Below are positions 15,799-63,028 of a stretch of DNA of 64,000 nucleotides, piece by piece (position 1 is the stretch's first letter; each line of letters starts with the position of its first letter). Below the pieces are notes generated by a model that saw only the letters and a program-made list of their open reading frames with translations, was not told the DNA's origin and ran no database searches. Made by a program: the position numbers and the translations under genes. This DNA is from Spiroplasma endosymbiont of 'Nebria riversi' (GTDB taxonomy: Bacteria; Bacillota_I; Bacilli_A; Mycoplasmatales; Nriv7): positions 1,054,001-1,118,000 of the forward strand of contig NZ_CP065193.1 of assembly GCF_018831625.1 (NCBI RefSeq), read 5' to 3'.

Positions 15799-15809
15799 GA
15801 ATTTTGATA

Positions 15810-17582
15810 ATGGTGTGAGTTAAGCCCCTTGTTTTACAAGAAAAAATTAAAAATTTACCACAAAGTTCGGGATGTTATCAGTTTTATAATGAAGCGCGAC
15901 AATTAATTTATGTTGGTAAAGCAAAAAATATTCAACAGCGGGTAAATAATTATTTTAATAAAGTACATAATTTTAAAACTACTAAATTAGTTCGTGAAAT
16001 TGCTGATGTGGATTATATTTTAACAATTAATGAAAAAGAAGCATTATTGTTAGAACATAATTTAATTAAAGATAAGCGTCCCCGATATAATATTTTATTA
16101 AATGATGATAAAACCTATCCTTATATTAAAATTACTGATGAAAATAATCCTGAATATCGTTTTGTTCGTAAAGTTCAAAAAGATAATGGTAAGTATTATG
16201 GTCCTTTTCCTGATGGCACGGGGGCTAGAGAAGTTTTAAAGATATTGCAACAATTATTTCCTTTGCGAAGATGTAAAGGAAGTTTAGGAACGCCGTGCTT
16301 ATATTATCATCTGCAATTATGTTCAGGTGCTTGTTTTAAAAAGGTTCCTGAGGAATATTATGCCTTGATGAAAAAGAAAATTAATGATTTTTTCCTTGAA
16401 AAAAATCAAGATATTAAAAATAAGATTACTGAGCGAATGCAACAAGCAGCGATTAATTTACAATATGAAGAAGCGCAAAGATTAAAAAATGTTTTAGATA
16501 AGTTACAATTATTTATTTCTCATCAGTTTGTTCAATTTCGTGATTTTCGTAATCGTGATTTTATTGGTTATGCTATTAAAGATCATAAATTGTCAATAAC
16601 AGCATTATTTTATCGTAATGGACAATTGCTTTCTAAAGATGAACAAATTTTTACTTTATTTAATGATAATTTAACTGATGCAATGAGAAATTATTTACAA
16701 CAGTTATATACTAATAATACTGTTCCCCAAGAATTATATGTTGCAAATATTGTTTTAGATGATTTGGCAGAAGCATTAAATATTAAAATTATTAATAAGT
16801 TTACTAAAAAAATGCAAGAAATTATTTCTTTAGCTACTAAGAATGCTCAAGAATTATTAAAGCAACAACTTGTTGATTCTTATCAAATTAATTATCGTTA
16901 TTATGAGATTGTTGAACAATTAGGAAAGCTTTTAAAAATCGCGACACCACAATATATTGAAATTATGGATATTGCCAATTTAGGACATGATAATGTTATT
17001 GGTGGGGTTATTTTTTATCAAAATGGTCAAGCAATTAAAAAACTATCTCGTCGTTATAAAATTCAAATTGAACAACAAGGGGATTATCATTATTTACAAA
17101 ATTTAGTTTATCGTCGTTATTGAAAAAAATTAATGAATAAAGAACCAATGCCGGAATTAATTATTGTTGATGGTGGTAAATTACAAATTGATAGTGTGCA
17201 GTTGCAATTAGAAAATTTAAATATTAGTTTACCAGTTGTCGGTCTTGTTAAGAATAGTCATCACAAAACTGATTATTTATTAGATAATAAAGGTTATCGG
17301 TTGGATATTGCTAAAAAGAGTGCTTTATTTCATTGATTAACTAAAGTTCAAGAAGAGATCCATAATTATACAATTTCATTTCATCGTCAACAACGAACTA
17401 ATTCTTTATTTGTTAATTCGTTAAAAAAAGTTAAAGGATTAGGTGAGTTAACTATTAAAAAGTTATATCAACAGTTTGAAACAATAATAAAAATGAAAGC
17501 AGTTTCATTTGATGAATTAAATGCTATTATTAAAAATAAAACAACAACAAAGGAGTTAATTGCTTATTTAAAAGATAATTAA
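15810..17582 (+). CDS. uvrC: Excinuclease ABC subunit C
   Basis: Makes both incisions around bulky DNA lesions with UvrA and UvrB. The 590-aa protein starts with a GIY-YIG nuclease domain (GCYQFY ... LIYVGKAKN), followed by the Cys cluster RRCKG, a UVR motif for UvrB binding (LQYEEAQRLKNVLDKL) and the C-terminal RNase H-like endonuclease (IMDIANLGHD, ELIIVDGGKLQ). Helix-hairpin-helix elements lie at the end (KVKGLGELTIKKL). ATG 15810 lies just after the ftsK stop, with a TAGGAAT ribosome site overlapping the ftsK end, so translation is probably coupled. Many Trp codons are TGA. Confidence 0.95.
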
Positions 17583-17615
17583 TTTAGAAATTTTATTCGT
17601 TAAATCGAAAAATTT

Positions 17616-18017
17616 TTTTAATTTTGTATAAAACTCTTGATAAAATAAAAAAATGACTTCAATAAATAAAATGATTACGAAAAGCGTCAAAACTTGCACG
17701 GCAATTTTTACATAAATATTTTTGTTTTCCTTCTGAATTATGTCCATTTTTAACGCAATGGTAAGATTCACATTTAGGGCATTTAATACCTTGTGCTCTA
17801 AATTTTTGATCAATTTCATTTAAACGTTTTTGTTTTTTTATTAATTCTGCTTGTTGTTTGACTTTTTCATAAAATTCTAAAAATTGATCATCTGTTAAAG
17901 TATTTACTAGTTATTGAATTATTTTTTCCATAATTATTATCTTCCTCTATCATATTAAAAATATACCTAAAATTAAGTATATTCAATAAATATCAAGAGT
18001 TTTCTACAAAATTAAAA
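17616..18017 (-). mobile_element. IS1595-like copy 5, internally deleted, 8-bp target duplication
   Basis: Both TIRs are kept, but the middle and 3' two-thirds of the transposase are gone: the right end is joined directly to the segment encoding HFIYWSHL. Flanks are AAAAATTT at 17608-17615 and 18018-18025. The remaining N-terminal frame (start 17931) also has a TAA in place of CAA at codon 6. It lies 34 bases after uvrC. Confidence 0.9.
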
Positions 18018-18043
18018 AAAAATTTATTACTAATTTGATGCTA

Positions 18044-18080
18044 AAATGCTTATATAAAAATATAAGCATTTTTATTTTTA
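18044..18080 (+). terminator. Terminator-like hairpin
   Basis: Stem AAATGCTTATA / TATAAGCATTT around a short A-rich loop, followed by T-rich sequence. It probably ends uvrC transcription, now separated from uvrC by the IS copy. Confidence 0.65.
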
Positions 18081-18164
18081 ATAAAATAGAAGGAGGATAT
18101 TATTTATTGAAAATAAAAATGCAATGATTAAATTTATAAACTAGATATAGGAGTATTAAAAAAT

Positions 18165-18572
18165 ATGTTATTAACAATTGCCCCATTAACAATAAGTGCT
18201 AACTTTTTAGTATCTTGTAATCATAATAGTAAAGACAATTTGACTACTGCTTTTAATGAATATGGAGCATTACAGTCGTTATTATGAGCAATTTCTGCTG
18301 AAAGAAAAGCACAATTATTAACACAATATCGCTTAAAAAAAAACTTATATAGTCAAGTTATCGCAAAACAAAAGCAAATTGATAAGGCATTAACTAAGGG
18401 TAAATTGAATAATAATCTTGTGAAATGAGAACATAATAAACTAACAATTAATCAAACCCAAGAAAATTAGTTTATTCCTGTCGTAGCCGTTGATTTAGAT
18501 GCATATAATATACCACAGACTTATGGCAAACACAAGAGGGTTTTTAAAAAAGTGATGATAAATTTAAAATAA
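18165..18572 (+). pseudogene. Lipoprotein remnant, possibly e(P4)-type HAD phosphatase
   Basis: The ATG at 18165 follows ATAGGAGT and gives a short signal sequence with lipobox LVSC. The frame meets TAG at 18468 after 101 codons, yet stays open beyond it (PVVAVDLDAY...) to TAA 18570. The layout resembles the start of class-B acid phosphatase lipoproteins: a Trp-containing helix (LQSLLWAISAERKAQ), a spacer, then VVxVDLD. The DxDxT motif breaks after DLD, where the sequence switches to a segment (NIPQTYGKHKR) also found at 42716. So this is a truncated, nonsense-bearing remnant. The family call is tentative. A tiny TTG-initiated frame upstream (18107, behind GGAGGA) may be the original N-terminus out of frame. 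Confidence 0.5.
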
Positions 18573-18704
18573 TGCAAGAAATTTTTTAAAATGATTTATA
18601 ATTAGACTCCAAGGCAAAGAGACTGTAGATTAATTTTTGAAGAAAGGAAAAGGTGTTATAAATTTTATTAATTAGTAAAAATTCACGAAAGGGATTTAAT
18701 TAAT
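18573..18704 (+). promoter_or_regulatory. Conserved leader of the MLGIxGN secreted-protein family
   Basis: Two blocks recur elsewhere. CCAAGGCAAAGAGACTG and the following AGATTAATTTTTG match 52838-52870. TTAATTAGTAAAAATTCA and GAAAG match 44682-44707. It holds the promoter and ribosome region of the gene at 18705 and would explain shared regulation of this paralogue family. Confidence 0.5.
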
Positions 18705-19216
18705 ATGAAAAAATTATTATTAATCTTGGGAACAATAACAATAGCGGGAAGCGGAATGTTGGGCATTGCCGGAAACGCATCAGCTTCAGAAAAAAATGAA
18801 ATTAATTATTCACAAAAAAATAATTTAAAAAATTTAAGTAGAAGTAAAAGACAAAATAATGAAAATAATATTTTTGGAATTAAAAAAATAATAATTAATA
18901 CAAATAGTACTATTTACAATAGTGGAGTTACTTTAAATAATAAAGTTTATTTTGGTTCAGCAGATCATAATGTATATGAGTGTAATCCTACAACAGGACA
19001 ACAAAAAAGTGTTATTCAAACAAATGGCGAAGTTTGATCTTCTGGAAAAGTATTAAATAATAAAGTTTATTTTGGTTCTGGTGATAATAATGTTTATGAG
19101 TATAGTAACTATTATTTACACTCAAATTTAAAAGAAATTATTAATAATTCTGATAATTTAATTTTAAATGAATTAAATTATTTAAATCAGGATTTAAATA
19201 TTTCACAATTAAAAAT
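18705..19216 (+). pseudogene. Secreted beta-propeller-like protein truncated by IS
   Basis: MKKLLLILGTITIAGSGMLG is a Sec signal peptide followed by the family spacer (GNASASEKNEINY...). Two similar repeats follow, each with NNKVYFGSxDxNVYE, typical of PQQ-like beta-propeller blades. The sequence then matches the domain in the protein at 44722 (LILNELNYLNQDLNISQL). Base 19217 is the left end of IS1595-like copy 6, and the frame runs on into the IS. Everything beyond two blades is missing or was never present. It is predicted to be secreted or surface-bound. No enzymatic role can be inferred. Confidence 0.7.
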
Positions 19217-20358
19217 TTTTAATTTTGTAGAAAACTCTTGATATTTATTGAATATACTTAATTTTAGGTATATTTTTAATATGATAGAGGTGGATAATAA
19301 TTATGGAAAAAATAATTCAAGAACTAGTAAATACTTTAACAGATGATCAATTTTTAGAATTTTATGAAAAAGTCAAACAACAAGCAGAATTAATAAAAAA
19401 AAACGTTTAAATGAAATTGATCAAAAATTTAGAGCACAAGGTATTAAAATGCCCTAAATGTGAATCTTACCATTGCGTTAAAAATGGACATAATTCAGAA
19501 GGAAAACAAAAATATTTATGTAAAAATTGCCGTGCAAGTTTTGACGCTTTTCGTAATCATTTTATTTATTGAAGTCATTTAAATTATGAACAATGAAATT
19601 TATTGATTCAAATTTCATTGCCGGGGCAATCTAGTAAAACAATTTCTCGTTTTATTAAAACTACATTAAAAACTGCTTGATATAATCGTCAAAAATTAAT
19701 GAAATCAAAACAATTAGAAAATACCCAATTAAAATTTAAAAAATTATCTGGTAAAATCCAAATCGATGAAACATTTATTAAATAAATTCATAAAGGAAAT
19801 TTCAAACATAAAACTGATCCACGAAGAATTCACCTTGACCCATTCGCAACTAATACTAAATGCTGTATTTAAATGGCTGTTGATAATAATAACAATATTT
19901 ATGTTAAATCCACAAACACCAAACGTTTACAAAAACAATAAGTTATTGAAAATATGAACAAAGAATTAATTAACCAAAATTCAATTATTACTTCTGATAT
20001 GCAAAAATTATATTTTTTAGTAGCAAAACAAACAAATTCTACTTTATGTGTAACTAAAACAACAATTAATCCTGAAGCTAGTTATCGTAACTTAAATAAA
20101 ATCAGTAAATTACAATCTAGTCTTAAAGAAGCCTTAATTCATTATCATGGTTTAGGTTTTACTAATATTCAAAATTATTTAAATCTCTGAAAATGAAAAT
20201 ACCAACATAAGGTTTTAACTCCAAACCAACAAACAGCGGTATTATATTTTAATGTATAAAAAATTAAAGTAAAAATAGTAATTTTACATAAAAGCCTTTT
20301 AAAATTATCAAGTTGATGATTTTTTTTATTTTATCAAGAGTTTTCGACAAAATTAAAA
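19217..20358 (+). mobile_element. IS1595-like copy 6, degenerate
   Basis: Full length with both TIRs. The transposase (19303-20259) carries a 4-base loss and a 1-base gain early on, plus TAA codons in place of GAA (after IQIDETFIK) and CAA, and TAA where other copies have TGA (Trp). Flanks TTAAAAAT and AAAATTGC do not match, so one side has been exchanged by recombination. The right flank is plectrovirus DNA. Confidence 0.88.
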
Positions 20359-20510
20359 AAAATTGCAATAACTTAGTTAAATAACCTCAACTCATCCATA
20401 ACCAGAGGGCGGAGCATACGATTTCCGCACCGCTTCGCCACTATAAACATCAACCAAGATGTTTTTTTTATTTACCTTTATTCTTAAGGCACCTTAAAAC
20501 ACCTTTAAAA
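20359..20510 (-). other. Plectrovirus-derived GC-rich non-coding block
   Basis: The reverse complement of 57540-57701 with minor differences. It includes the GAAGCGGTGCGGAAA-type GC-rich motif (20425-20445) and the degenerate TTAAGGCACCTTAA palindrome. The same GC-rich motif lies next to the phage rep gene at 35805-35836. No gene is seen. Confidence 0.65.
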
Positions 20511-20834
20511 TTAATTTTTAAAATAATTAAAACTTATATCCTTTTTATCGTTCTCTTTTTCAGCAATAAAAAAATTTAACAATTCTCGCCCTATAATCAA
20601 ATTAGAATCCTGCTCTTTTTTATTAACTGAAACCAACTGATAATCACCATTTCTAATTATTCCAATACAAATAGAATTTTCATATTTGCCTTTATAAACA
20701 AATCGTTTTGAAAATCAAATACCAACAGGATTACTAAATCACGGAATTTCTGGTGCTTTAATAAGAATTGCATTTTGTGTTTCTTTTAAAAGATATTTTT
20801 TAGTATTTAAAAAAATATTTTCAATATTTCTCAC
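20511..20834 (-). CDS. Plectrovirus conserved 107-aa protein
   Basis: An open frame of 107 codons starting with GTG (20834) behind GGAAGGTG. Related copies: 57203-57526 (nonsense), 51932-52259 (frameshift), and the window end at 63949, where the start is ATG with KKIENIFLNTKKYLLK. It is the first gene after the phage leader in each case. The protein is small and mixed alpha/beta by composition, with no membrane segment, and may be a regulator or DNA-binding protein. This is the only intact complete copy here. No function is assigned. Confidence 0.7.
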
Positions 20835-21016
20835 ATACACACCTTCCGTATAAATATATTTAGTTATATTAAACTAAGTTATATTTAACTTAGTTTAATA
20901 CTATCAAGGCACAAAAAAATACAAGGCATAACTAAAAATAATAAATATTAATTTAACCTTATATTTCTTGTAATAAATAAATGAGCTCGTATTTATTTAT
21001 TAATTAAAAACAAGTT
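20835..21016 (-). promoter_or_regulatory. Plectrovirus leader with inverted repeats
   Basis: Contains the inverted repeat AAACTAAGTTA / TAACTTAGTTT (about 20871-20896) immediately upstream of the 107-aa gene. Further away are long AT-rich stretches shared with 56935-57200 and 61981-62115. The repeat arms could be an operator for the downstream gene. Confidence 0.5.
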
Positions 21017-21057
21017 TGTAGAAATCAAAATCTTGTCATATGTATATGGTTTCTACA
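21017..21057. repeat. 41-bp phage-edge stem-loop, copy 1
   Basis: TGTAGAAATCA and TGGTTTCTACA pair over 11 positions (one wobble) around a 19-base loop. The same 41-mer occurs at 56894 and 62116, each time at the border between plectrovirus DNA and chromosomal sequence. Confidence 0.75.
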
Positions 21058-21086
21058 CTTTTATTTATTAATTTATTGAAGTTATT

Positions 21087-22229
21087 TTTTAATTTTGTCG
21101 AAAACTCTTGATATTTATTGAATATACCTAATTTTAGGTATATTTTTAATATGATAGAGGTGGATAATAATTATGGAAAAAATAATTCAAGAACTAGTAA
21201 ATACTTTAACAGATGATCAATTTTTAGAATTTTATGAAAAAGTCAAACAACAAGCAGAATTAATAAAAAAACAAAAACGTTTAAATGAAATTGATCAAAA
21301 ATTTAGAGCACAAGGTATTAAATGCCCTAAATGTGAATCTTACCATTGTGTTAAAAATGGACATAATTCAGAAGGAAAACAAAAATATTTATGTAAAAAT
21401 TGCCGTGCAAGTTTTGATGCTTCTCGTAATCATTTTATTTATTGAAGTCATTTAAATTATGAACAATGAAATTTATTGATTCAAATTTCATTGCTGGGGC
21501 AATCTAGTAAAACAATTTCTCGTTTTATTAAAACTACATTAAAAACTGCTTGATATAATCGTCAAAAATTAATGAGATTAAAACAATTAGAAAATACCCA
21601 ATTAAAATTTAAAAAATTATCTGGTAAAATCCAAATCGATGAAACATTTATTAAAGAAATTCATAAAAGAAATTTCAAACATAAAACTGATCCACGAAGA
21701 ATTTACCTTGACACATTCGCAAATAATACTAAATGCTGTATTCAAATGGCAGTTGATAATAATAACAATATTTATGTTAAATCCACAAACACCAAACGTT
21801 TACAAAAACAATGAGTTATTGAAAATATGAACAAAGAATTAATTAACCAAAATTCAATTATTACTTCTGATATGCAAAAATTATATTTTTTAGTAGCACA
21901 AAAACAAATTCTACTTTATGTGTAACTAAAACAACAATTAATCCTTAAGCTAGTTATCGTAACTTAAATAAAATCAGTAAATTAAAATCTAGTCTTAAAG
22001 AAGCCTTAATTCATTATCATGGTTTAGGTTTTACTAATATTCAAAATTATTTAAATCTCTGAAAATGAAAATACCAATATAAGGGTTTAACTCCAAACCA
22101 ACAAACAGCGGTATTATATTTTAATATATAAAAAATTAAAGTAAAAATAGTAATTTTACATAAAAGCCTTTTAAAATTATCAAGTTGATGATTTTTTTAT
22201 TTTATCAAGAGTTTTCGACAAAATTAAAA
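21087..22229 (+). mobile_element. IS1595-like copy 7 with 8-bp target duplication
   Basis: Both TIRs are present, flanked by AAGTTATT at 21079-21086 and 22230-22237. The transposase frame (21173-22131) has a one-base net loss near 21899 and a GAA-to-TAA change near 21945, so it is a pseudogene. Beyond it, 22238-22440 holds no gene that I can see. Confidence 0.92.
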
Positions 22230-36277: not shown

Positions 36278-36430
36278 TTAAAAACTCTTTTCATCACAAG
36301 AATTACAGATTCCAACTGTATTTTTATTACCAATGACATAGTTTTCGCTGTCGTATTCAATACAAAATATTACTGCCAAAAGAATATAGCCCCCAAAATA
36401 ATTTATAAAAACCAAATGTGCAAAACATCT
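36278..36430 (-). pseudogene. Truncated phage ORF with CxxC
   Basis: A frame with no start codon, ending ...TVGICNSCDEKSF. The 5' end is lost at the phage-chromosome junction marked by the TGTAGAAACCA half-site. The pair of cysteines suggests a small metal-binding protein, but the fragment is too short to classify. Confidence 0.4.
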
Positions 36431-36759
36431 GTGGTTTCTACAAATTCAGTAAGATGACTTATTGATAGAGTTGCTTTTTTAAAAATTTCTATATCAAGTT
36501 TATTTTCAGAAGTAAAATAATTTTTATTTTTTCAAAGTTTAGAATCGTTTCTAAAAACTAAATCTTTAGATGAACTAATTGTATTATCATAAATTGCAGC
36601 ATTATTATAAATTTTAGCATATTGATTTTTAACATAATCATTTGATGAAAATACCCCTAAAAGGATAACTAACATTATTAAAATAACAATTAGTAAACTA
36701 ATTACTTGAAAAAAGTTTTGAAAAAAACTATAAATAATACTTTTAAATAACTTTAACAT
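36403..36759 (-). pseudogene. ABC permease, N-terminal fragment
   Basis: MLKLFKSIIYSFFQNFF, then a long TM and the first part of an extracytoplasmic domain (VKNQYAKIYNNAAIYDNTI). This resembles the N-terminal layout of the large FtsX-type permease at 28265. The frame ends after 118 codons in phage-derived sequence. GAGGTAA lies ahead of the ATG. The rest of the gene (over 1000 codons in relatives) is missing, apparently lost at phage integration. The rnc operon ends 32 bases away on the same strand, and this gene would have been next in line. Confidence 0.65.
36431..36442. repeat. Half of the phage-edge stem-loop
   Basis: GTGGTTTCTACA matches one arm of the 41-bp stem-loop found at 21017, 56894 and 62116. 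Phage DNA lies on its left and a truncated permease gene on its right, so this half-site marks the junction. Confidence 0.6.
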
Positions 36760-42593: not shown

Positions 42594-42800
42594 ATGACTA
42601 AAGAACAACTTAAAATATATGGTAATCCATCTCAAAAAATGAATACAATTATTGAAATTCACCAACAAATAAAAGAAATTTTTAAAAATTTTCAGTTTAA
42701 TAACGAAAAAGATTGTAATATACCACAGACTTATGACAAGTACAAGAGGGTTTTAAAAGGGTCGCGTTTAGTTTTCTTAGGTATTGCTTTGAAGAAGTAA
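42594..42800 (+). CDS. Hypothetical 68-aa protein
   Basis: Preceded by a clear GAGAGGTGG ribosome site. The first 40 residues are helical and polar. The stretch CNIPQTYDKYKRVLK is a near copy of the segment at 18506-18550 (NIPQTYGKHKRVFK). It could be a mosaic of an N-terminal gene start joined to a repeated 44-bp segment. No function is recognised. Confidence 0.5.
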   Translation: MTKEQLKIYGNPSQKMNTIIEIHQQIKEIFKNFQFNNEKDCNIPQTYDKYKRVLKGSRLVFLGIALKK

Positions 42801-53639: not shown

Positions 53640-53767
53640 TGGTATGGCAACCCTTTTTTGGACACTTTTTATGTAGACTGTCATTTTCTAAATTCAACAT
53701 GCGTTAAATAATTTAAACTGCCATGTATTCTAAGATTATTGTATCAATTAACAAAATCAAATAATTC
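53640..53767 (-). mobile_element. IS150-like copy 4, right-end fragment
   Basis: 128 bases of the right end, minus strand, from TGGTATGGCAACC. It stops where IS1595-like copy 9 begins. Confidence 0.85.
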
Positions 53768-54860
53768 TTTTAATTTTGTAGAAAACTCTTGATATTTATT
53801 GAATATACTTAATTTTAGGTATATTTTTAATATGATAGAGGTGGATAATAATTATGGAAAAAATAATTCAAGAACTAGTAAATACTTTAACAGATGATCA
53901 ATTTTTAGAATTTTATGAAAAAGTCAAACAACAAGCAGAATTAATAAAAAAACAAAAACGTTTAAATGAAATTGATCAAAAATTTAGGGCAAAAGGCATT
54001 AAATGCCCTAAATGTGAATCTTACCATCGCGTTAAAAATGGACATAATTCAGAAGGAAAACAAAAATATTTATGTAAAAAGTGCCGTGCAAGTTTTGACG
54101 CTTTTCGTAATCATTTTATTTATTGAAGTCATTTAAATTATGAACAATGAAATTTATTGATTCAAATTTCATTGCTGGGGCAATCTAGTAAAACAATTTC
54201 TCGTTTTATTAAAACTACATTAAAAACTTATTGATATAATCGTCAAAAATTAATGAAATCAAAACAATTAGAAAATACCCAATTAAAATTTAAAAAATTA
54301 TCTGTTAAAATCCAAATCGATGAAACATTTATTAAAGAAATTCATAAAGGAAATTTCAAACATAAAACTGATCCACGAAGAATTCACCTTGACCCATTCG
54401 CAACTAATACTAAATGCTGTATTCAAATAGCAGTTGATAATAATAACAATATTTATGTTAAATCCACAAACACCAAACGTTTACAAAAACAATGAGTTAT
54501 TGAAAATATGAACAAAGAATTAATTAACCAAAATTCAATTATTACTTCTGATATGCAAAAATTATATTTTTTAGTAGCGAAACAAACAAACTCTATTTTA
54601 TGTTTAACTAAAACAACAATTAATCCTGAAGCTAGTTATCGTAACTTAAAATAAAATCAGTAAATTACAATCTATTCTTAAAGAAGCCTTAATTCATTAT
54701 CATGGTTTAGGTTTTACTAATAGTTAAAATTATTTAAATCTCTGAAAATGAAAATACCAATATAAGAGTTTAACTCCGAACCAACAAACAGCGGTATTAT
54801 ATTTTAATGTATAAAAAATTAAAGTAAAAATAGTAATTTTACATAAAAGCCTTTTAAAAT
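53768..54860 (+). mobile_element. IS1595-like copy 9, right end lost
   Basis: The left TIR and whole transposase region (53854-54814) are present; the right TIR is replaced by an IS150-like fragment at 54861. The transposase has a one-base gain near 54650 and a nonsense change at TAATAGTTAAAATT, so it is inactive. Confidence 0.88.
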
Positions 54861-55038
54861 AGAATTTATCAAGGGTAAAAAATTTGAAAATTTAACACAA
54901 TTAAAATGCGAATTATTTGATTTTGTTAATTGATACAATAATCTTAGAATACAGGGCAGTTTAAATTATTTAACGCCTGTTGAATTTAGGAAAATGACAG
55001 TCTACATAAAAAGTGTCCAAAAAAGGGTTGCCACACCA
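54861..55038 (+). mobile_element. IS150-like copy 5, right-end fragment
   Basis: The last 178 bases of the element on the plus strand, ending GCCACACCA. With copy 4 it forms inverted IS150-like ends bracketing an IS1595-like copy. Confidence 0.85.
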
Positions 55039-55039
55039 T

Positions 55040-55276
55040 AGAGAAGTATTGCAAAGAATCATTATCAAATATGACAGCATTTATCTTCCTAACAATTTAA
55101 TTGCCTTTTGAGAATTAGAAATTGACAATGAAGAACTTCAATATACTCTTGAACACTTACTAGAATACATTAACGAACATTATTCTGAAGAACACGCTTA
55201 TGAAGAAATTTATGAAGAAGTACAAAACTTTGTTGAATATATGGAAAGTTTAGAACCAAAAGAAAAGAAACACTAA
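55040..55276 (+). pseudogene. Acidic host protein, N-terminus lost to IS
   Basis: An open 78-codon frame with no start (REVLQRIIIKYDSIYLPNN ... YMESLEPKEKKH). The C-terminal half is rich in Glu with HLLEYINEHYSEEHAYEE. It is followed by a strong terminator, so it was the 3' end of a real gene. Family not recognised. Confidence 0.6.
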
Positions 55277-55311
55277 AAAACGACTTTATTTTCTAAATAA
55301 AGTCGTTTTCA
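55275..55311 (+). terminator. Terminator
   Basis: AAAACGACTTTATTT-TCTA-AAATAAAGTCGTTTT, a near-perfect 14-15 bp stem that begins at the stop codon. It lies between the truncated gene and the convergent tRNA genes and can act on both strands. Confidence 0.85.
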
Positions 55312-55327
55312 AACCGTAAACATAACT

Positions 55328-55404
55328 TGGTAGCGAGAGAGAGACTTGAACTCTCGACCTTTCGGGTATGAACCGAACACTCTAACCAACTGAGCTATCT
55401 CGCC
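55328..55404 (-). tRNA. tRNA-Met (CAU)
   Basis: 77 nt including an encoded CCA. Acceptor GGCGAGA/TCTCGCT, anticodon loop with CAU in GGTTCATACC, T-arm GAGAGTTCAAGTCTCTC. The stem sequence resembles elongator tRNA-Met; a lysidine-modified Ile tRNA is the alternative. Confidence 0.9.
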
Positions 55405-55409
55405 AAATA

Positions 55410-55486
55410 TGGTCGGGAAGATAGGATTCGAACCTACGACCTCTCGGTCCCAAACCGAGCGCTCTACCAAGCTAAGCTACTTCCCG
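55410..55486 (-). tRNA. tRNA-Pro (UGG)
   Basis: 77 nt with CCA. Acceptor CGGGAAG/CTTCCCG, anticodon stem CTCGG/CCGAG around TTTGGGA, T-loop TTCGAAT. Five bases separate it from tRNA-Met, so they form one transcript. Confidence 0.95.
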
Positions 55487-55499
55487 TATTAAAATAAAA

Positions 55500-55577
55500 T
55501 GGCGCGCCCAACAGGAGTTGAACCCGCAACCTCTTGATCCGTAGTCAAGCACTCTGTCCAATTGAGCTATGGGCGCC
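55500..55577 (-). tRNA. tRNA-Arg (ACG)
   Basis: 78 nt with CCA. Acceptor GGCGCCC/GGGCGCG, anticodon stem CTTGA/TCAAG around CTACGGA. First of the three-tRNA transcript. Confidence 0.95.
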
Positions 55578-55602
55578 TATGGTGTCATTAAATAACAAAA
55601 TT

Positions 55603-55631
55603 ATTATATATTATTACCGCTCTGTTAACAA
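55603..55631 (-). promoter_or_regulatory. tRNA operon promoter
   Basis: On the minus strand TTGTTA (-35), a 17-base spacer, and TATAAT (-10), 26 bases ahead of tRNA-Arg. IS1595-like copy 10 ends 10 bases upstream of the -35, so the promoter is spared. Confidence 0.88.
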
Positions 55632-55641
55632 CAAAAATTTC

Positions 55642-56655
55642 TTTTAATTTTGTCGAAAACTCTTGATAAAATAAAAAAAATCATCAACTTGATAATTTTA
55701 AAAGGCTTTTATGTAAAATTACTATTTTTACTTTAATTTTTTATACATTAAAATATAATACCGCTGTTTGTTGGTTTGGAGTTAAACCCTTATATTAGTA
55801 TTTTCATTTTCAGAGATTTAAATAATTTTGAATATTAGTAAAACCTAAACCATGATAATGAATTAAGGCTTCTTTAAGATTAGATTGTAATTTACTGATT
55901 TTATTTAAGTTACGATAACTAGCTTCAGGATTAATTGTTTTTTTAGTTACACATAAAGTAGAGTTTGTTTGTTTTGCTACTAAAAAATATAATTTTTGCA
56001 TATCAGAAGTAATAATTTAATTTTGGTTAATTAATTCTTTGTTCATATTTTCAATAACTCATTGTTTTTGTAAATGTTTGGTGCTTGCGGATTTAACATA
56101 AATATTGTTATTATTATCAACTGCCATTTGAATACAGCATTTAGTATTAGTTGCGAATGGATCAAGGTGAATTCTTCGTGGATCAGTTTTATGTTTTAAA
56201 TTTCCTTTATGAATTTCTTTAATAAATGTTTCATCAATTTGGATTTTACCAGATAATTTTTTAAATTTTAATTGGGTATTTTCTAATTGTTTTGATTTCA
56301 TTAGTTTTTTACGATTATATCAAGCGGTTTTTAATGTGGTTTTAATAAAACGAGAAATTGTTTTACCAGATTACCCCAGCAATGAAATTTGAATCAATAA
56401 ATTTCATTGTTCATAATTTAAATGACTTCAATAAATAAAATGATTACGAAAAGCGTCAAAACTTGCACGGCAATTTTTACATAAATATTTTTGTTTTCCT
56501 TCTGAATTATGTCCATTTTTAACGCAATGGTAAGATTCACATTTAGGGCATTTAATACCTCGTGCTCTAAATTTTTGATCAATTTCATTTAAACGTTTTT
56601 GTTTTTTTATTAATTCTGCTTGTTATTTGACTTTTTCATAAAATTCTAAAAATTT
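55642..56655 (-). mobile_element. IS1595-like copy 10, left end lost
   Basis: The right TIR and most of the transposase remain. The first 40 codons and left TIR are missing, replaced at 56656 by sequence upstream of tRNA-Cys. Several TAA codons lie in the frame (55741-56655), so it is inactive. Confidence 0.88.
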
Positions 56656-56718
56656 CATATTTCATAACTTTAATTAATAATATCACAAATTATTTCTTGT
56701 TACCTATTGGTTAATTAA

Positions 56719-56742
56719 AAAAATCACTTAACTGTGATTTTA
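56719..56742 (-). terminator. Terminator of tRNA-Cys
   Basis: Read on the minus strand: AAAATCAC-AGTTAA-GTGATTTT followed by seven T in total, 13 bases after the tRNA. Confidence 0.8.
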
Positions 56743-56754
56743 CTTAATATTTTA

Positions 56755-56831
56755 TGGAGGCACTGATCGGATTCGAACCGATAATCAAGGAGTTGCAGTC
56801 CAATGCCTTAAACCAGTTTGGCCACAGTGCC
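56755..56831 (-). tRNA. tRNA-Cys (GCA)
   Basis: 77 nt with CCA. Acceptor GGCACTG/CAGTGCC, anticodon loop CTGCAAC, T-arm ATCGG-TTCGAAT-CCGAT. The anticodon stem TTGGA/TCCTT pairs at only three of five positions, with two U-U mismatches at the outer end. Confidence 0.85.
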
Positions 56832-56893
56832 ATATATACAATAAATATTATTACACATTAATTATAAAACTACAATAATATTTTATTAAAAAC

Positions 56894-56934
56894 TGTAGAA
56901 ACCATATACATATGACAAGATTTTGGTTTCTACA
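56894..56934. repeat. 41-bp phage-edge stem-loop, copy 2
   Basis: TGTAGAAACCA ... TGGTTTCTACA, perfect 11-bp arms around a 19-base loop. The chromosome (tRNA-Cys side) lies left, plectrovirus DNA right. Confidence 0.85.
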
Positions 56935-57202
56935 AACCTGCTTTTAATTAATAAATAAATACGAGCTCATTTATTTATTACAAGAAATATAAGGTTAAAT
57001 TAATATTTATTATTTTTAGTTATGCCTTGTATTTTTTTGTGCCTTGATAGCAATAAACTAAGTTAATTAGTAAACGAAGTTTACTAACAAATTTTGTTAA
57101 ACACAAATGTTTAAAAAAATAAATATTTAGCTTAGTTAGATAACTAAGCTAAATATAACTTAGTTTAATATAACTAAATATATTTGTAAGGGAGGTATGT
57201 AT
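56935..57202 (+). promoter_or_regulatory. Plectrovirus leader, plus strand
   Basis: Shares its sequence with 20835-21016 (reverse) and 61981-62115 (reverse). It contains AACTAAG/CTTAGTT repeats and the GGGAGG ribosome site of the next gene. No ORF seen. Confidence 0.55.
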
Positions 57203-57526
57203 GTGAGAAATATTGAAAATATTTTTTTAAATACTAAAAAATATCTTTTAAAAGAAACACAAAACGCAATGCTTATTAAAGCACCATAAATTCCTTGATT
57301 TAGTAATCCTATTGGTATTTGATTTTCAAAACAATTTGTTTATAAAGGCAAATATGAAAATTCTATTTGTATTGGAATAATTAGAAATGGTGAGTATCAG
57401 TTGATTTCAGTTAATAAAAAAGAGCAGGAGTCTAATTTGATTATAGGACAAGAATTGTTAAATTTTTTTATTGCCGAAAAAGAGAATGATAAAAAGGATG
57501 TAAGTTTTAATTATTTTAAAAATTAA
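57203..57526 (+). pseudogene. 107-aa phage protein with nonsense codon
   Basis: The same length as the intact 20511-20834 gene, but GAA at codon 29 is TAA (57287). Otherwise very similar. Confidence 0.85.
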
Positions 57527-57539
57527 TTTTAAAGGTGTT

Positions 57540-57701
57540 TTAAGGCGCCTTAAGAATAGAGGTAAATAAATTATTTAAAAAAACTCCACAAAACATCTTG
57601 GTTGATGTTTATAGTGGTGAAGCGGTGCGGAAAGCGTATGCTCCGCCCGCTAGAGGGTTATGGATGAGTTGAGGTTATTTAACTAAGTTATTGCAATTTT
57701 T
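57540..57701 (+). other. Phage non-coding block with palindrome and GC-rich motif
   Basis: Perfect palindrome TTAAGGCGCCTTAA (57540-57553) and a GC-rich motif (57617-57655, GAAGCGGTGCGGAAAGCGT) like the one upstream of rep. No gene in this stretch. Confidence 0.6.
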
Positions 57702-58807
57702 TTTTAATTTTGTAGAAAACTCTTGATATTTATTGAATATACTTAATTTTAGGTATATTTTTAATATGATAGAGGTGGATAATAATTATGGAAAAAATAA
57801 TTCAAGAACTAGTAAATACTTTAACAGATGATCAATTTTTAGAATTTTATGAAAAAGTCAAACAACAAGCAGAATTAATAAAAAAACAAAAACGTTTAAA
57901 TGAAATTAATCAAAAATTTAGAGCACACGGTATTAAACGCCCTAAATGTGAATCTTGCCATTGCTTTAAAAATGGACATAATTCAGAAGGAAAACAAAAA
58001 TATTTATGTAAAAATTGCCGTGCAAGTTTTGACGCTTTTCGTAATCATTTTATTTATTGAAGTCATTTAAATTATGAACAATGAAATTTATTGATTCAAA
58101 TTTCATTGCCGGGGCAATCTAGTAAAACAATTTCTCGTTTTATTAAAACTACATTAAAAAATGCTTGATATAATCGTCAAAAATTAATGAAATCAAAACA
58201 ATTAGAAAATACCCAATTAAAATTTAAAAAATTATCTGGTAAAATCCAAATCGATGAAACATTTATTAAAGAAATTCATAAAGGAAATTTCGAACATAAA
58301 ACTGATCCACGAAGAATTTACCTTGACATGATAATAATAACAATATTTATGTTAAATCCACAAACACCAAACGTTTACAAAAATAATGAGTTATTGAAAA
58401 TATGAACAAAGAATTAATTAACCAAAATTCAATTATTACTTCTGATATGCAAAAATTATATTTTTTAGTAGCAAAACAAACAAACTCTACTTTATGTGTA
58501 ACTAAAACAACAATTAATCCTGAAGCTAGTTATCGTAACTTAAATAAAATCAGTAAATTACAATCTAGTCTTAAAGAAGCATTAATTCATTATCATGGTT
58601 TAGGTTTTACTAATATTCAAAATTATTTAAATCTCTGAAAATTAAAATACCAACATAAGGGTTTAACTCCAAACCAACAAACAGCGGTATTATATTTTAA
58701 TGTATAAAAAATTAAAGTAAAAATAGTAATTTTACATAAAAGCCTTTTAAAATTATCAAGTTGATGATTTTTTTTTATTTTATCAAGAGTTTTCGACAAA
58801 ATTAAAA
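57702..58807 (+). mobile_element. IS1595-like copy 11 with 8-bp target duplication
   Basis: Flanks CAATTTTT at 57694-57701 and 58808-58815. The transposase (57788-58707) has a 40-base net deletion between the TDPRR and NNNIY segments. Inserted within the phage genome. Confidence 0.92.
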
Positions 58808-58855
58808 CAATTTTTTGATTTGATGTAGTAAAAAAATAGTTTTGGAGTTTTAGAA

Positions 58856-59032
58856 ATGAAAATGTGAGTTAGTGTGGATGAACCGCCTAAAAATTATTGT
58901 CGAAAGTTTATATATTCTATTAATAAAAAAACTGGATTAGAACAAAAAATTTGAGCGTCTAAATCTGCACTTGAATCTGTTAGAACTGATTTAGTCGGTG
59001 ATAATTGACTTTGTGTTGATATTGCATATTAA
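58856..59032 (+). CDS. Plectrovirus small protein, 58 aa
   Basis: MKMWVSVDEPPKNYCRKFIYSINKK..., soluble, Trp-rich by TGA codons, with GGAG ahead of the ATG. No counterpart is seen in the minus-strand phage block at 46-52 kb. Function unknown. Confidence 0.6.
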
Positions 59033-59061
59033 AAGATTAAAAAATTAAGGAGAAAAGAAAG

Positions 59062-59274
59062 ATGAGTATATTTGGATTAGTATTTTTTACGATTTTAACA
59101 TTATTACTAGCATATTATATTGCAGTTAATATTTATCGGTTTTTTAAAGATAAAAAGAAATATGGTAGTGAAGCAAAGCGGTTGCCAAAAGATTTTACTT
59201 ATTCACAACGAATATTTATTGCAAAGTTTAAACGAAATTTGTTAGAACAAGATGAAAAAGAAATTAAAAAGTAG
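59062..59274 (+). CDS. Plectrovirus small membrane protein, 70 aa
   Basis: An N-terminal TM (FGLVFFTILTLLLAYYIAV) followed by a basic part with FIAKFKRNLLEQDEKE. Relative of the 73-aa gene at 51708-51929. AAGGAG lies ahead of the ATG. Confidence 0.75.
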   Translation: MSIFGLVFFTILTLLLAYYIAVNIYRFFKDKKKYGSEAKRLPKDFTYSQRIFIAKFKRNLLEQDEKEIKK

Positions 59275-59283
59275 GTTTAGAAA

Positions 59284-59431
59284 ATGTTTAAAAAAATAAT
59301 TATTGAGTTAATTGAATTAATTTATCCAACTGCCGATTACCACCCCAAGTTGTATTTTTTTTTCAATTTTAATAATTGTAATGCTATCTTCAGCCATTAT
59401 TTTTCTACTCTTTTGACCTTTTAAGCGGTAA
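59284..59431 (+). pseudogene. Plectrovirus small TM protein, frameshifted
   Basis: MFKKIIIELIELIYPTADY, then a frame change near the CACCCCAAG, then FSILIIVMLSSAIIFLLFWPFKR. The relative at 51547-51708 is intact. Confidence 0.65.
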
Positions 59432-59472
59432 TTATTATATTTTTAGTTGCTTGAAAAGATTTAGATTGAGAA

Positions 59473-59670
59473 ATGACAAAATTGTATTTTTGAGATTTAT
59501 TTATCCAAATTACAACTATTCCGGCTCATATTAGTGGTGGTAAAGAAATTGATTTAACACAAGAAACACTTTGACTTTTAATAGCGAACATCGCGTTTTG
59601 AATGGTATTAGTAATTATTGTCTTATTTATGGTTATTTTGTTTTATAAAGTTAAATCATATTTTGTTTAG
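59473..59670 (+). CDS. Plectrovirus small TM protein, 65 aa
   Basis: MTKLYFWDLFIQITTIPAHISGG, then a C-terminal TM (IANIAFWMVLVIIVLFMVILF). Compared with 51320-51543, about 10 residues may be missing at the front, since KDLDWE continues the frame upstream without an initiator. Confidence 0.65.
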
Positions 59671-59685
59671 AAAGGGGGTGATTAT

Positions 59686-59919
59686 ATGATCGGAACTTTC
59701 TTAGTAGATGCACCAGCTGTTACTGGTGAACAAGCGGTTACTAATTTATGAAAAGCATTAATTAAAGCATTTAGCAATATTTGAACTGATATTATTGGTG
59801 GTAATATGCCAAATGTCGTTAATTTCTTTGCTACATATTGATTTTTCTTGCTTGGTGTGATTATTGGTTTATTTTTAGTCGCTTTCAAAATGTTTGAAAA
59901 ATTAATGCCCGGCAGATAG
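59686..59919 (+). CDS. Plectrovirus major coat-type protein, 77 aa
   Basis: MIGTFLVDAPAVTGEQAVTN, an amphipathic helix, a TM (YWFFLLGVIIGLFLVAF) and a basic end KMFEKLMPGR. This is the classic layout of a filamentous phage major coat protein. Strong ribosome site AAAGGGGGTG. It precedes the Zot-like gene, as in the other block. The frame is intact here and broken at 50898-51141. Confidence 0.75.
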
Positions 59920-59956
59920 TAATAAAAATAAAGAAAGTGTGATTTAAGCGACGCTA

Positions 59957-60185
59957 TTGTTTAAAAAAATAAATTTAATATTATATGATTTTGTTGCTTT
60001 AAATCGCACTTTATTTATTATTGCGTGATTTTATGGTGCGATTTTGCATTATTATAATCCCCAAAGTTAAAGAATGTTATTTGATATTATTTATTTATTA
60101 ATTGCTTTGTATATTTTATATACTAAAATTTCTCATTTCTTTGCATGGCGTAGTTTTATTAATTTCTTATTAAATTTGCCTTAAA
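59957..60185 (+). pseudogene. Zot-like ATPase N-terminus, cut by IS150-like copy 6
   Basis: LFKKINLILYDFVALNRTLFIIAWFYGAILHYYN, then TAA, then IIYLLIALYILYTKI before the IS at 60186. Corresponds to the first 60-70 residues of 49864-50859; the ATPase part is gone. Confidence 0.65.
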
Positions 60186-61751
60186 TGGATAGGTTACAAT
60201 AAGTTGGACCATATTTATGTGGACTTTCAAATAAAATAAAATTATTAAGAAAGTAGGAAGATAAAAATGGGGAAAAACTCATATTCAAATGAATTTAAAA
60301 AACAAATTGTCATGCTTTATCAAAACGGAAAAAGCATTGTTGAAATTATTAAAGAATACGGGATTTCAAAATCAGCCGTATAATCAGTGAATTAAAAATT
60401 TTAATAATTTTGGGTCATTTAAAGTACAAAATAATCGCACTGTCGAAGAAAATGAATTAATTTACTTGCGAAAAGAAAACCAACAATTACGAATGGAAAA
60501 TGACATTTTAAAGCAAGCAGCACTGATAATTGGCAAAAAATAGGAGTTATTAACAATAATAAAGAAAAATATTCCGTGCTAAAAATGTGTCAAATATTAA
60601 AAATAGCAAAACCAACATATTATTATCAAACTAATAATTGTGTTAAGTATGATGTTAATAATTATGAAGAAGAAGTTATCAGTGCATTTAATAAAAGTCG
60701 TAAAATTTATGGTGCTCGTAAAATTAAAGCTGTTTTAATGAGAAAAGATATTATCTTATCACGTCGAAAAATCAGATTCCTTATGATCAAAAATAATTTG
60801 GTTTCTAAATACAACAAATTAAAATATCGTAATCATAAAACAATGGTTAATAATGAAAAAATTAGTAATGTTTTAAATCGTCAATTTAATAACAAAAAAC
60901 CTAATGAAGTTGTTGTTAGTGATTTAACATATGTGCAAAAGTTGGATAGGTTACAATAAGTTAGACCATATTTATGTGGACTTTCAAATAAAATAAAATT
61001 ATTGATGAAATTTTAAGCACTTTTAAAATTAAAAAATCATTGAGTGCGAAGGGTTGTCCTTATGACAACGCTGTGGCTGAAACAACTTACAAAACTTTTA
61101 AAACGGAATTTATTGAGGGTAAAAAATTTGAAAATTTAACATAATTAAAATACGAATTATTTGATTTTGTTAATTGATATAACAACATTCGAATTCACGG
61201 CAGCCTAAATTATTTAACGCCTGTTGAATTTAGAAAACAACAGTCTACATAAAAAGTGTCCTAAAAAGGGTTGCCATACCAAGTTGGAGGAAAATGACAT
61301 TATATTTGTTTATTAATTGACTTGTTTAATCGAGAAATAATTGGCTATAGTGCCATACCAAACAAAACCGCTGAACTAGTTCAACAAGCTTTTCATAAAA
61401 TAACACGACCATTAAATAAAATAACTTTATTTCATACTGATCGTGGTAATGAATTCAAAAATAAAATCATTGATGAAATTTTAATAACCTTTAATATTAA
61501 AAGATCATTGAGTGCGAAGGGTTGTCCTTATGACAATGCTGTGGCTGAAACAACTTACAAAACTTTTAAAACGGAATTTATCAAGGGTAAAAAATTTGAA
61601 AATTTAACACAATTAAAATGCGAATTATTTGATTTTGTTAATTGATACAATAATCGTAGAATACATGGCAGTTTAAATTATTTAATGCCTGTTGAATTTA
61701 GAAAATGACGGTCTACATAAAAAGTGTCCAAAAAACGGTTGCCAATAACCA
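60186..61751 (+). mobile_element. IS150-like copy 6, interrupted by copy 7
   Basis: Starts TGGATAGG and ends near ATAACCA. orfA (60267 onward) has a one-base gain (TATAATCAG). orfB (60576-61720) is split at 60942 by the nested copy. The right end abuts an IS1595-like fragment. Confidence 0.88.
60943..61281 (+). mobile_element. IS150-like copy 7, deletion derivative nested in copy 6
   Basis: The left end (about 60 bases) is joined to the last third of orfB, ending CCATACCA. Flanked by the 3-bp repeat AGT (60940-60942 and 61282-61284), which matches the IS3 family. Confidence 0.88.
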
Positions 61752-61980
61752 CCGTGTGCTCTAAATTTTTGATCAATTTCATTTAAACGTTTTCGTTTTT
61801 TTTATTAATTCTGCTTGTTGTTTGACTTTTTCATAAAATTCTAAAAATTTATCATCTGTTAAAGTATTTACTAGTTCTTGAATTATTTTTTCTATAATTA
61901 TTATCCACCTCTGTCATATAAAAATATACCTAAAATTAAGTATATTCAATAAATATCAAGAGTTTTCTACAAAATTAAAA
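61752..61980 (-). mobile_element. IS1595-like copy 12, left-end fragment
   Basis: Left TIR and the first 45 or so codons; the ATG is changed to ATA and an extra base lies in the T-run. The rest is replaced by the IS150-like end. Confidence 0.85.
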
Positions 61981-62115
61981 AATATATTTAGTTTATTACT
62001 ATCAAGGCACAAAAAAATACAAGACATAACTAAAAATAATAAATATTAATTTAACCTTATATTTCTTGTAATAAATAAATGAGCTCATATTTATTTATCA
62101 ATTTAACAGCAAACT
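61981..62115 (-). other. Plectrovirus leader remnant
   Basis: Shares sequence with 20897-21016 (ATCAAGGCACAAAAAAATAC and on). The phage gene that should follow has been lost to the IS copies. Confidence 0.6.
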
Positions 62116-62156
62116 TGTAAAAACCAAAATCTTGTCATATGTATATGGTTTCTACA
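62116..62156. repeat. 41-bp phage-edge stem-loop, copy 3
   Basis: TGTAAAAACCA ... TGGTTTCTACA (one arm with a single change). Phage DNA on the left, the NAD kinase upstream region on the right. Confidence 0.8.
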
Positions 62157-62242: not shown

Positions 62243-63028
62243 ATGCAACAAAAGAAATTTACAATTGTTACTAATAAGGCCGATGAATCAATTGCAGGGG
62301 CTAAAAACTTATCTAGTAAATTATTGGCATTAAAGATGATATTTGATGAACAAAACCCAGAAATAGTATTTGCTATTGGTGGTGATGGTACTTTTTTATC
62401 GGCGGTTAATCGTTTTAATGAAAATATTGATAATATTCATTTTATAACTATTAATACGGGAAATATTGGTTTTAATGCTCTTTATCAAGTTAATGAAATT
62501 GATAAGTTAATTACTAATTTAAAAAATAATATTTTGAAAACAAAATCTCTTGATGCTTTAAAGATAACTATTAATAATAAAATTTTTTATAGTCTTAATG
62601 AGATTAAATTAATGAGTATTGCAAAAACAATATTTTTTACAGTTTATATTAATAATCAATTATTACAAAATTGTCAAAGTTCAGGATTTGTTTTAACTAC
62701 TAAAACTGGTTCAACGGGCTATACTAAAAGTATTAATGGTGCCGTTATTTTAAGTGAAAAAAATTTAATGGAATTCTTAGAAATTGCTCCGGTTTCTCAT
62801 AATAAACATAATTCTTTAAAGGCGCCATTAATTTTAGATAATACCCACACCGTTACTATTAAAGGTAATATGAAAGATGCTTTTTTAGTAATTGATAGTC
62901 AAAAACATGACTTTAATAGTGATAATTTAATTATTAATTTAATTGCTAATAAAATTAAAATTTTAGTAACTGATGTTAATGATTTAATAATGATTAATCA
63001 AATTCAAAAAACATTTATTCATAATTAA
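62243..63028 (+). CDS. nadK: NAD kinase
   Basis: Phosphorylates NAD+ to NADP+. 261 aa with the diacylglycerol-kinase-like GGDGTFL motif (about residue 46), the NTGNIGF segment and KTGSTGYTKS in the C-terminal domain. The Asn-Glu of YSLNEI and the later residues fit the NAD site. ATG 62243 lies 7 bases after GAGGTG. The gene begins only 86 bases from the phage edge hairpin, so the promoter region may be partly phage-derived. Confidence 0.94.
   Translation: MQQKKFTIVTNKADESIAGAKNLSSKLLALKMIFDEQNPEIVFAIGGDGTFLSAVNRFNENIDNIHFITINTGNIGFNALYQVNEIDKLITNLKNNILKTKSLDALKITINNKIFYSLNEIKLMSIAKTIFFTVYINNQLLQNCQSSGFVLTTKTGSTGYTKSINGAVILSEKNLMEFLEIAPVSHNKHNSLKAPLILDNTHTVTIKGNMKDAFLVIDSQKHDFNSDNLIINLIANKIKILVTDVNDLIMINQIQKTFIHN

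Follow-up and report, generated by a model that had tools for sequence, protein, structure and literature searches.

What a 41-bp stem-loop is doing at the edge of phage DNA is the question raised by positions 56894-56934 of the window, as the whole stretch of 64,000 nucleotides analysed here is called, which belongs to the genome of the Spiroplasma endosymbiont of 'Nebria riversi' (NZ_CP065193.1, positions 1,054,001 to 1,118,000, forward strand). The original prediction, made from the letters of the window, proposed that the hairpin is the attachment structure of a plectrovirus and that it is used as in CTX-type filamentous phages, through a host Xer recombinase acting on a folded mimic of the dif site. 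The follow-up analysis leads to a different answer: the hairpin very probably forms the left end of a filamentous phage genome, that of an SpV1-like plectrovirus, which behaves like a transposon. This explanation draws on the ends of the element, a 15-bp target duplication, an enzyme gene, a target preference and arrays of copies, all of them present in the genome sequences. The feature from which it starts is:

56894..56934, + strand, left terminal inverted repeat of type 1, with an 11-bp palindrome; phage to the right of the repeat

The positions claimed for the three near-identical 41-mers of the window were confirmed, with perfect 11-bp arms in the 56894 copy, TGTAGAAACCATATACATATGACAAGATTTTGGTTTCTACA, and one mismatch against it in each of the copies at 21017 and 62116, both on the minus strand. 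The 41-mer folds at -7.8 kcal/mol, far better than shuffled sequence (z -4.9), with a 19-nucleotide loop and an A/T-rich stem, and its chance expectation is nil (0 matches in 100 shuffles). Mapping all its copies, a check suggested along with the original prediction, and allowing up to three mismatches over the central 35 bases, gave 27 copies in the window's genome (G000) and 11-14 in each of four further genomes of the same genus; the exact sequence, loop included, is conserved over the five genomes, and a reversed control pattern gave 0 matches in the same searches.

When isolated copies are aligned, phage DNA begins at TGTAG; the sequence to the left of TGTAG varies by site, while that to the right is phage, and the outer base of the hairpin is thus the true phage border and the crossover point. 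The right border, which the original prediction had overlooked, repeats the outer part of the hairpin imperfectly and in inverted orientation (compare TGTAGAAACCA... on the left with TGTAATATACCACAG..., the reverse complement of the right border), and inverted right ends are found at 399996, 1354111 and elsewhere. The two borders form imperfect terminal inverted repeats (TIRs) of the form TGT...ACA, beginning TGTA, in which the outer 11 bp of the hairpin constitute the transposon end and have their counterpart in the right end; the inner inverted arm, which forms the hairpin, is present only in the left end, and right ends do not fold. Type 2 phages end in TGTAGAAACCACAGATGTTTTGCACA on the left and TGTAATATACCACAGATGTTTTGCACA on the right, with an identical ACCACAGATGTTTTGCACA in both. 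A third end, TGTAAATCACACACAG, is of the right type, since the transposase gene points towards it, a fourth, TGTGTAAAGCACACACTTATGTTAGTTTTACACA, is a left end, and in other genomes types 3 and 4 occupy identical host sites. The hairpin does keep a constant orientation to the phage at phage-host borders, as had been claimed, but at 25 of the 93 left ends the neighbour is another phage's right end instead of host DNA. In these tandems a spacer directly precedes the hairpin, and GTCTGTGGTATATTAC precedes the spacer; on the opposite strand GTCTGTGGTATATTAC reads TGTAATATACCACAGACTTATGACAA, an imperfect match to the hairpin's outer part, TGTAGAAACCATATACATATGACAA. What stands of the proposed attachment structure is that it marks the integration border.

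The flanks were compared for left and right ends lying on one strand, 3-14 kb apart. Fifteen left/right pairs have identical 15-bp flanks (15/15); they represent about 8 independent sites, several pairs lying within single-site arrays, and two more sites, including G000 390402/399996, agree in 14/15 positions. Examples are G004 1893678/1904011 (AAATTCCTGAAAAAT), G002 199493/189861, G002 1243214/1253618, G003 134534/125890 and, with 16 bp, G003 185437/194081. Occupied and empty sites could also be compared, as had been suggested with the original prediction, by joining the flanks and searching the genomes, and uninterrupted sites with a single 15-mer do exist. G004 has them, at 99-100% identity, in about 40 copies of an IS256-like element; at 97-99% they are found in an ssb-like gene, both at another place in G000 and in G003. 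Two insertions in IS30-like elements supply each other's empty site, as direct reading of the sequences shows. The labels ssb-, IS30- and IS256-like were assigned by inspecting the translations by eye. Paired 15-mers together with empty sites are the mark of DDE transposition.

The candidate enzyme is encoded by the phage. Near the right end lies the gene for a transposase of 360 residues with rve domains, of which many intact copies occur in several genomes; it matches PHROG 8463 (transposase) at 2.3e-72, and a search of solved structures gave no useful match. The encoded rve transposase, the TGT...ACA repeats and a 15-bp duplication within the 2-15 bp range are those of an IS481-like DDE element. 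Other candidates for the integration enzyme, an IS3-like transposase at 60289-61720 and the IS1595-like elements, were rejected as separate insertions in the phage remnants of the window, whereas the IS481-like gene recurs beside the right end.

Besides the 25 tandem cases, 68 left ends lie in host DNA; with each site counted once, these give 52 unique targets. In 24/52 a TATTG begins 17 bases beyond the hairpin, and in 28/52 it does so at 16-18, against a genomic background of 0.0027 per position (p 1e-47), from which about 0.14 of the 52 targets would be expected at any one position. The spacing holds for the unique host sites of the other end types (12/24 for type 3, 5/7 for type 4). In many cases this TATTGAC-like box serves as the -35 hexamer of a promoter. 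The box overlaps TTGACA, exact -35 hexamers being found in 14% of targeted sites vs 0.7% of all TATTG, and an exact TATAAT follows at 16-19 bp spacing in 6/28 targets vs 1.2% of intergenic TATTG sites (p 9e-7), as at 201678 (AAAAATTAGCAATCT-ACTATTGACA-17-TATAAT). The targeted promoters include those of tRNA-Gly (886328) and tRNA-Leu (949303), and recognisable promoters point away from the phage.

A mechanism can be proposed in which the phage transposase would pair both ends of the circular phage genome, the presumed transposition intermediate, and join both strands to the target DNA with a 15-bp stagger, at a site chosen through the -35-like box, which either the transposase or a partner would read. 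Because the box and the 15-mer on the hairpin side would outlast each insertion, a further phage could insert at the same site, and tandem phages separated by an identical 15-mer would result. Such re-insertion at a surviving site would account for G002:C1:817979-863858, an array of about 46 kb with six left ends of types 1 and 2 in series, in one orientation and at one promoter, every one preceded by the identical 15-mer ACCTTATCAAAAGTA (reading outward). The palindrome, a conserved dyad whose arms covary from one phage type to another, is most likely a second, inverted transposase contact, which would make the ends unequal and set the orientation. A broader and evenly poised proposal is that promoter-proximal, oriented integration by means of an IS481-like transposase arose independently in a family of single-stranded DNA phages. 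The site would be recognised through the -35 box (or the sigma factor/RNA polymerase) and would outlast every insertion, and so would become a re-usable landing pad on which several types of phage accumulate, while the covarying palindrome at one end would set orientation.

Several observations weigh against this picture. Against the IS481 model the transposase scores 5.8e-43 and 147.4 bits, which does not reach the family's curated cut-off of 224 bits, and several left/right combinations lack a matching 15-mer, these being probably mis-paired or rearranged copies. In about 24 of the 52 host targets no exact TATTG stands where it would be expected; some show one-base variants (TAATG, CATTG) and others have the box on the right-end side, so that targeting is a strong preference and not a rule. 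A good -10 box accompanies only 12/28, and many motif-bearing sites lie inside coding sequence without a -10 box, for which reason the enzyme may read TATTGA itself rather than the promoter. The association with promoters could then be a by-product of a transposase that reads only TATTGA(C), or a TGTAT resembling the TIR, and of the weeding out of insertions that fell in genes. Motif sites within insertion sequence (IS) elements that likewise lack a -10 box, and the partial likeness of the motif to the phage's own end, TGTAATAT, speak for such a by-product, which is a serious contender falling a little short of even; however, properly spaced -10 boxes are over-represented even when intergenic TATTG sites are taken as the reference (p about 1e-6).

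Other explanations concern the hairpin itself. Comparison of the type 4 arms, TGTGTAAAGC/GTTTTACACA, with those of type 1 reveals covariation in the palindrome: stem pairs 4 and 5 are altered on both sides (A-T to G-C and G-C to T-A, counted by eye), hence the dyad itself is conserved and not merely its sequence. Filamentous phages use hairpins for packaging or as complementary-strand origins, and a dyad that has covarying arms and is preserved in types 1, 2 and 4, in the non-coding leader ahead of the first phage genes, would suit a palindrome serving mainly one of these jobs and lying near the end as the only intergenic region. This is rather unlikely, as the outer 11 bp are the transposon end and are matched by the right end, although the palindrome may have a double role. 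A transcription terminator that shields neighbours from read-through would also place a stem-loop at the element border; it is highly improbable and was rejected, since no terminator-like site was detected around 56894, and the 19-nucleotide loop, the A/T-rich stem and the conservation of the exact sequence with its loop are unlike a terminator. As for the CTX-type mechanism, in which host XerC/XerD would recombine the folded single-stranded hairpin with a chromosomal dif, the fold of -7.8 kcal/mol with its 11-bp arms at the phage border is what it would predict. Nevertheless, the tyrosine recombinase domain PF00589 was not detected in the window's genome (97.6% complete), whereas 14/14 control genomes were positive; the insertions have 15-bp target duplications, an inverted right end and tens of different targets per genome instead of one dif, and the phage encodes a DDE transposase. 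That mechanism was rejected and retains next to no probability.

Transposition of SpV1-like phages is already known: for Vespertiliovirus, the International Committee on Taxonomy of Viruses (ICTV) states replication by transposition, the packaged genome being a circular transposition intermediate (PMC8295915, citing Melcher et al. 1999). The transposon-like phage described here shares with this genus (SpV1-type, Plectroviridae) a Spiroplasma-like host, UGA read as tryptophan, a unit of about 8 kb (full-length units are about 7.7-10 kb) and a transposase gene; the ICTV profile is silent on the ends, the target duplication and the choice of target, whereas all three are defined here. Membership in Vespertiliovirus requires the major coat protein and the maturation protein to be >50% similar to those of named members. 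DNA, coat-protein and exact-core searches of collections, from which close records are possibly missing, matched no free or named Spiroplasma plectrovirus, and scanning genome contigs for the core was likewise negative. The putative plectrovirus identity is based on the genetic code of the host, the size, the arrangement of the genes and the transposase rather than on similarity to any named phage.

Duplications of about 15 bp are known as well. The accessible part of the account of the IS481 and IS1202 families (PMC10045372) gives target duplications of 2-15 bp, about 15 bp in some members, along with the rve DDE transposase and TGT...ACA ends also seen here; unlike these elements, the present one is phage-borne and scores 147 vs 224 bits, and in that part promoter targeting is not described for the two families. 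Promoter-proximal DDE insertion is known from TnGBS, which inserts 15-17 bp upstream of sigma-A promoters, a behaviour called unusual in that report (PMC3942029). Like the phage, the promoter-targeting elements TnGBS/p-MULT3, ISLre2 and ISKra4 are DDE elements whose insertions have a defined orientation and keep a constant spacing, 15-17 bp in their case, to the -35 box downstream of them. Their transposases are of the Mutator type, whereas here an IS481-like rve transposase is carried by a filamentous phage with a 15-bp duplication, and the right repeat of TnGBS lies next to the promoter, whereas here the left repeat lies next to the box and about half of the targets have an exact TATTG. Like CTXphi and other XerCD/dif phages, the element is a filamentous phage whose attachment border carries a palindrome able to fold, but it has a host without a detected Xer recombinase, no single dif target, and a target duplication.

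In the literature searched, which did not include Melcher et al. 1999, no paper was found on promoter-proximal integration by a filamentous phage; part of what is defined here on ends, duplication and target choice may already be contained in that 1999 paper. The combination of DDE transposition and promoter-proximal targeting in a single-stranded DNA phage appears to be new. The Xer guess gives way to a definition of the ends, the 15-bp duplication and the rule of target choice of phages that fill Spiroplasma genomes and rearrange them. These features provide precise markers to tell whole from broken prophages and make insertion history readable from the 15-mers. If the proposal is true, it would add a second, unrelated bacterial route to insertion upstream of promoters, in a phage, and it would explain how prophages pile up in a small genome with many genes spared.

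The window is without a complete phage copy, and the following features lie around its ends:

56879..56893, no strand, 15 bp next to the left repeat, tattttattaaaaac, in the place where other copies show the target duplication
56870..56877, - strand, target motif TATTGTAG, with TTGTAG as putative -35 box; reads away from the phage, towards tRNA-Cys
56755..56831, - strand, tRNA-Cys gene (ARAGORN), downstream of the target motif
62116..62156, - strand, left terminal repeat of type 1 with one G-T wobble, second element; phage to the left
21017..21057, - strand, left terminal repeat of type 1, truncated element; TTATTGAAG just outside the 15-mer
36404..36442, - strand, left terminal repeat of type 2 (TGTAGAAACCACAGATGTTTTGCACATTTGGTTTTTATA), followed outwards by AATTCAGTAAGATGA and next by CTTATTGATAG
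42714..42749, - strand, right terminal repeat, TGTAATATACCACAGACTTATGACAAGTACAAGAGG on +; phage to its right, in minus orientation
18504..18539, - strand, right terminal repeat with TGTA changed to TATA, decayed element

At the tRNA-Cys site the motif is at offset 16 and the promoter is less clear; the 15-mer tattttattaaaaac also adjoins a type 2 left end in G002, and in G004 its version has one base changed. The left ends at 56894 and 62156 face each other with IS-riddled phage remnants between them, and the repeat at 62116..62156 adjoins the upstream region of a NAD-kinase-like gene (62243-63028). The remnants at 13134-22000 and 53700-62100 are riddled with an IS1595-like element (MEKIIQELVNTLTDDQFLEFYEKVKQQ...), several copies of which are frameshifted.

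The 11-16-bp segments beside the hairpin had been considered to travel with the phage; this was largely dropped, most of them being target duplications copied by same-site re-insertion. A few cases do not fit same-site re-insertion; one of them is CCTTTAAATAAACT within the 1344162 array, which is also found at 1197848 and would fit a circle-junction spacer. In the same array, the spacer AGTTTATTTAAAGG at G000 1354126 and 1366149 is the target 15-mer of the different locus 1197848, as if carried along in the circle junction.

A tandem of three right ends, 51 bp apart, forms a small repeat array of terminal sequence at G004:C1:311322-311424. At G000:1041032-1041072 (L006) a hairpin has no phage behind it and 15-mer/target-like sequence at both flanks, which perhaps originated by deletion or inversion between two inverted prophages. 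At L047, L056 and L071, the left hairpin and 18 bp of phage are followed by a shared AGACTTCTTGCA sequence, probably another insertion element that entered phage DNA at one common point.
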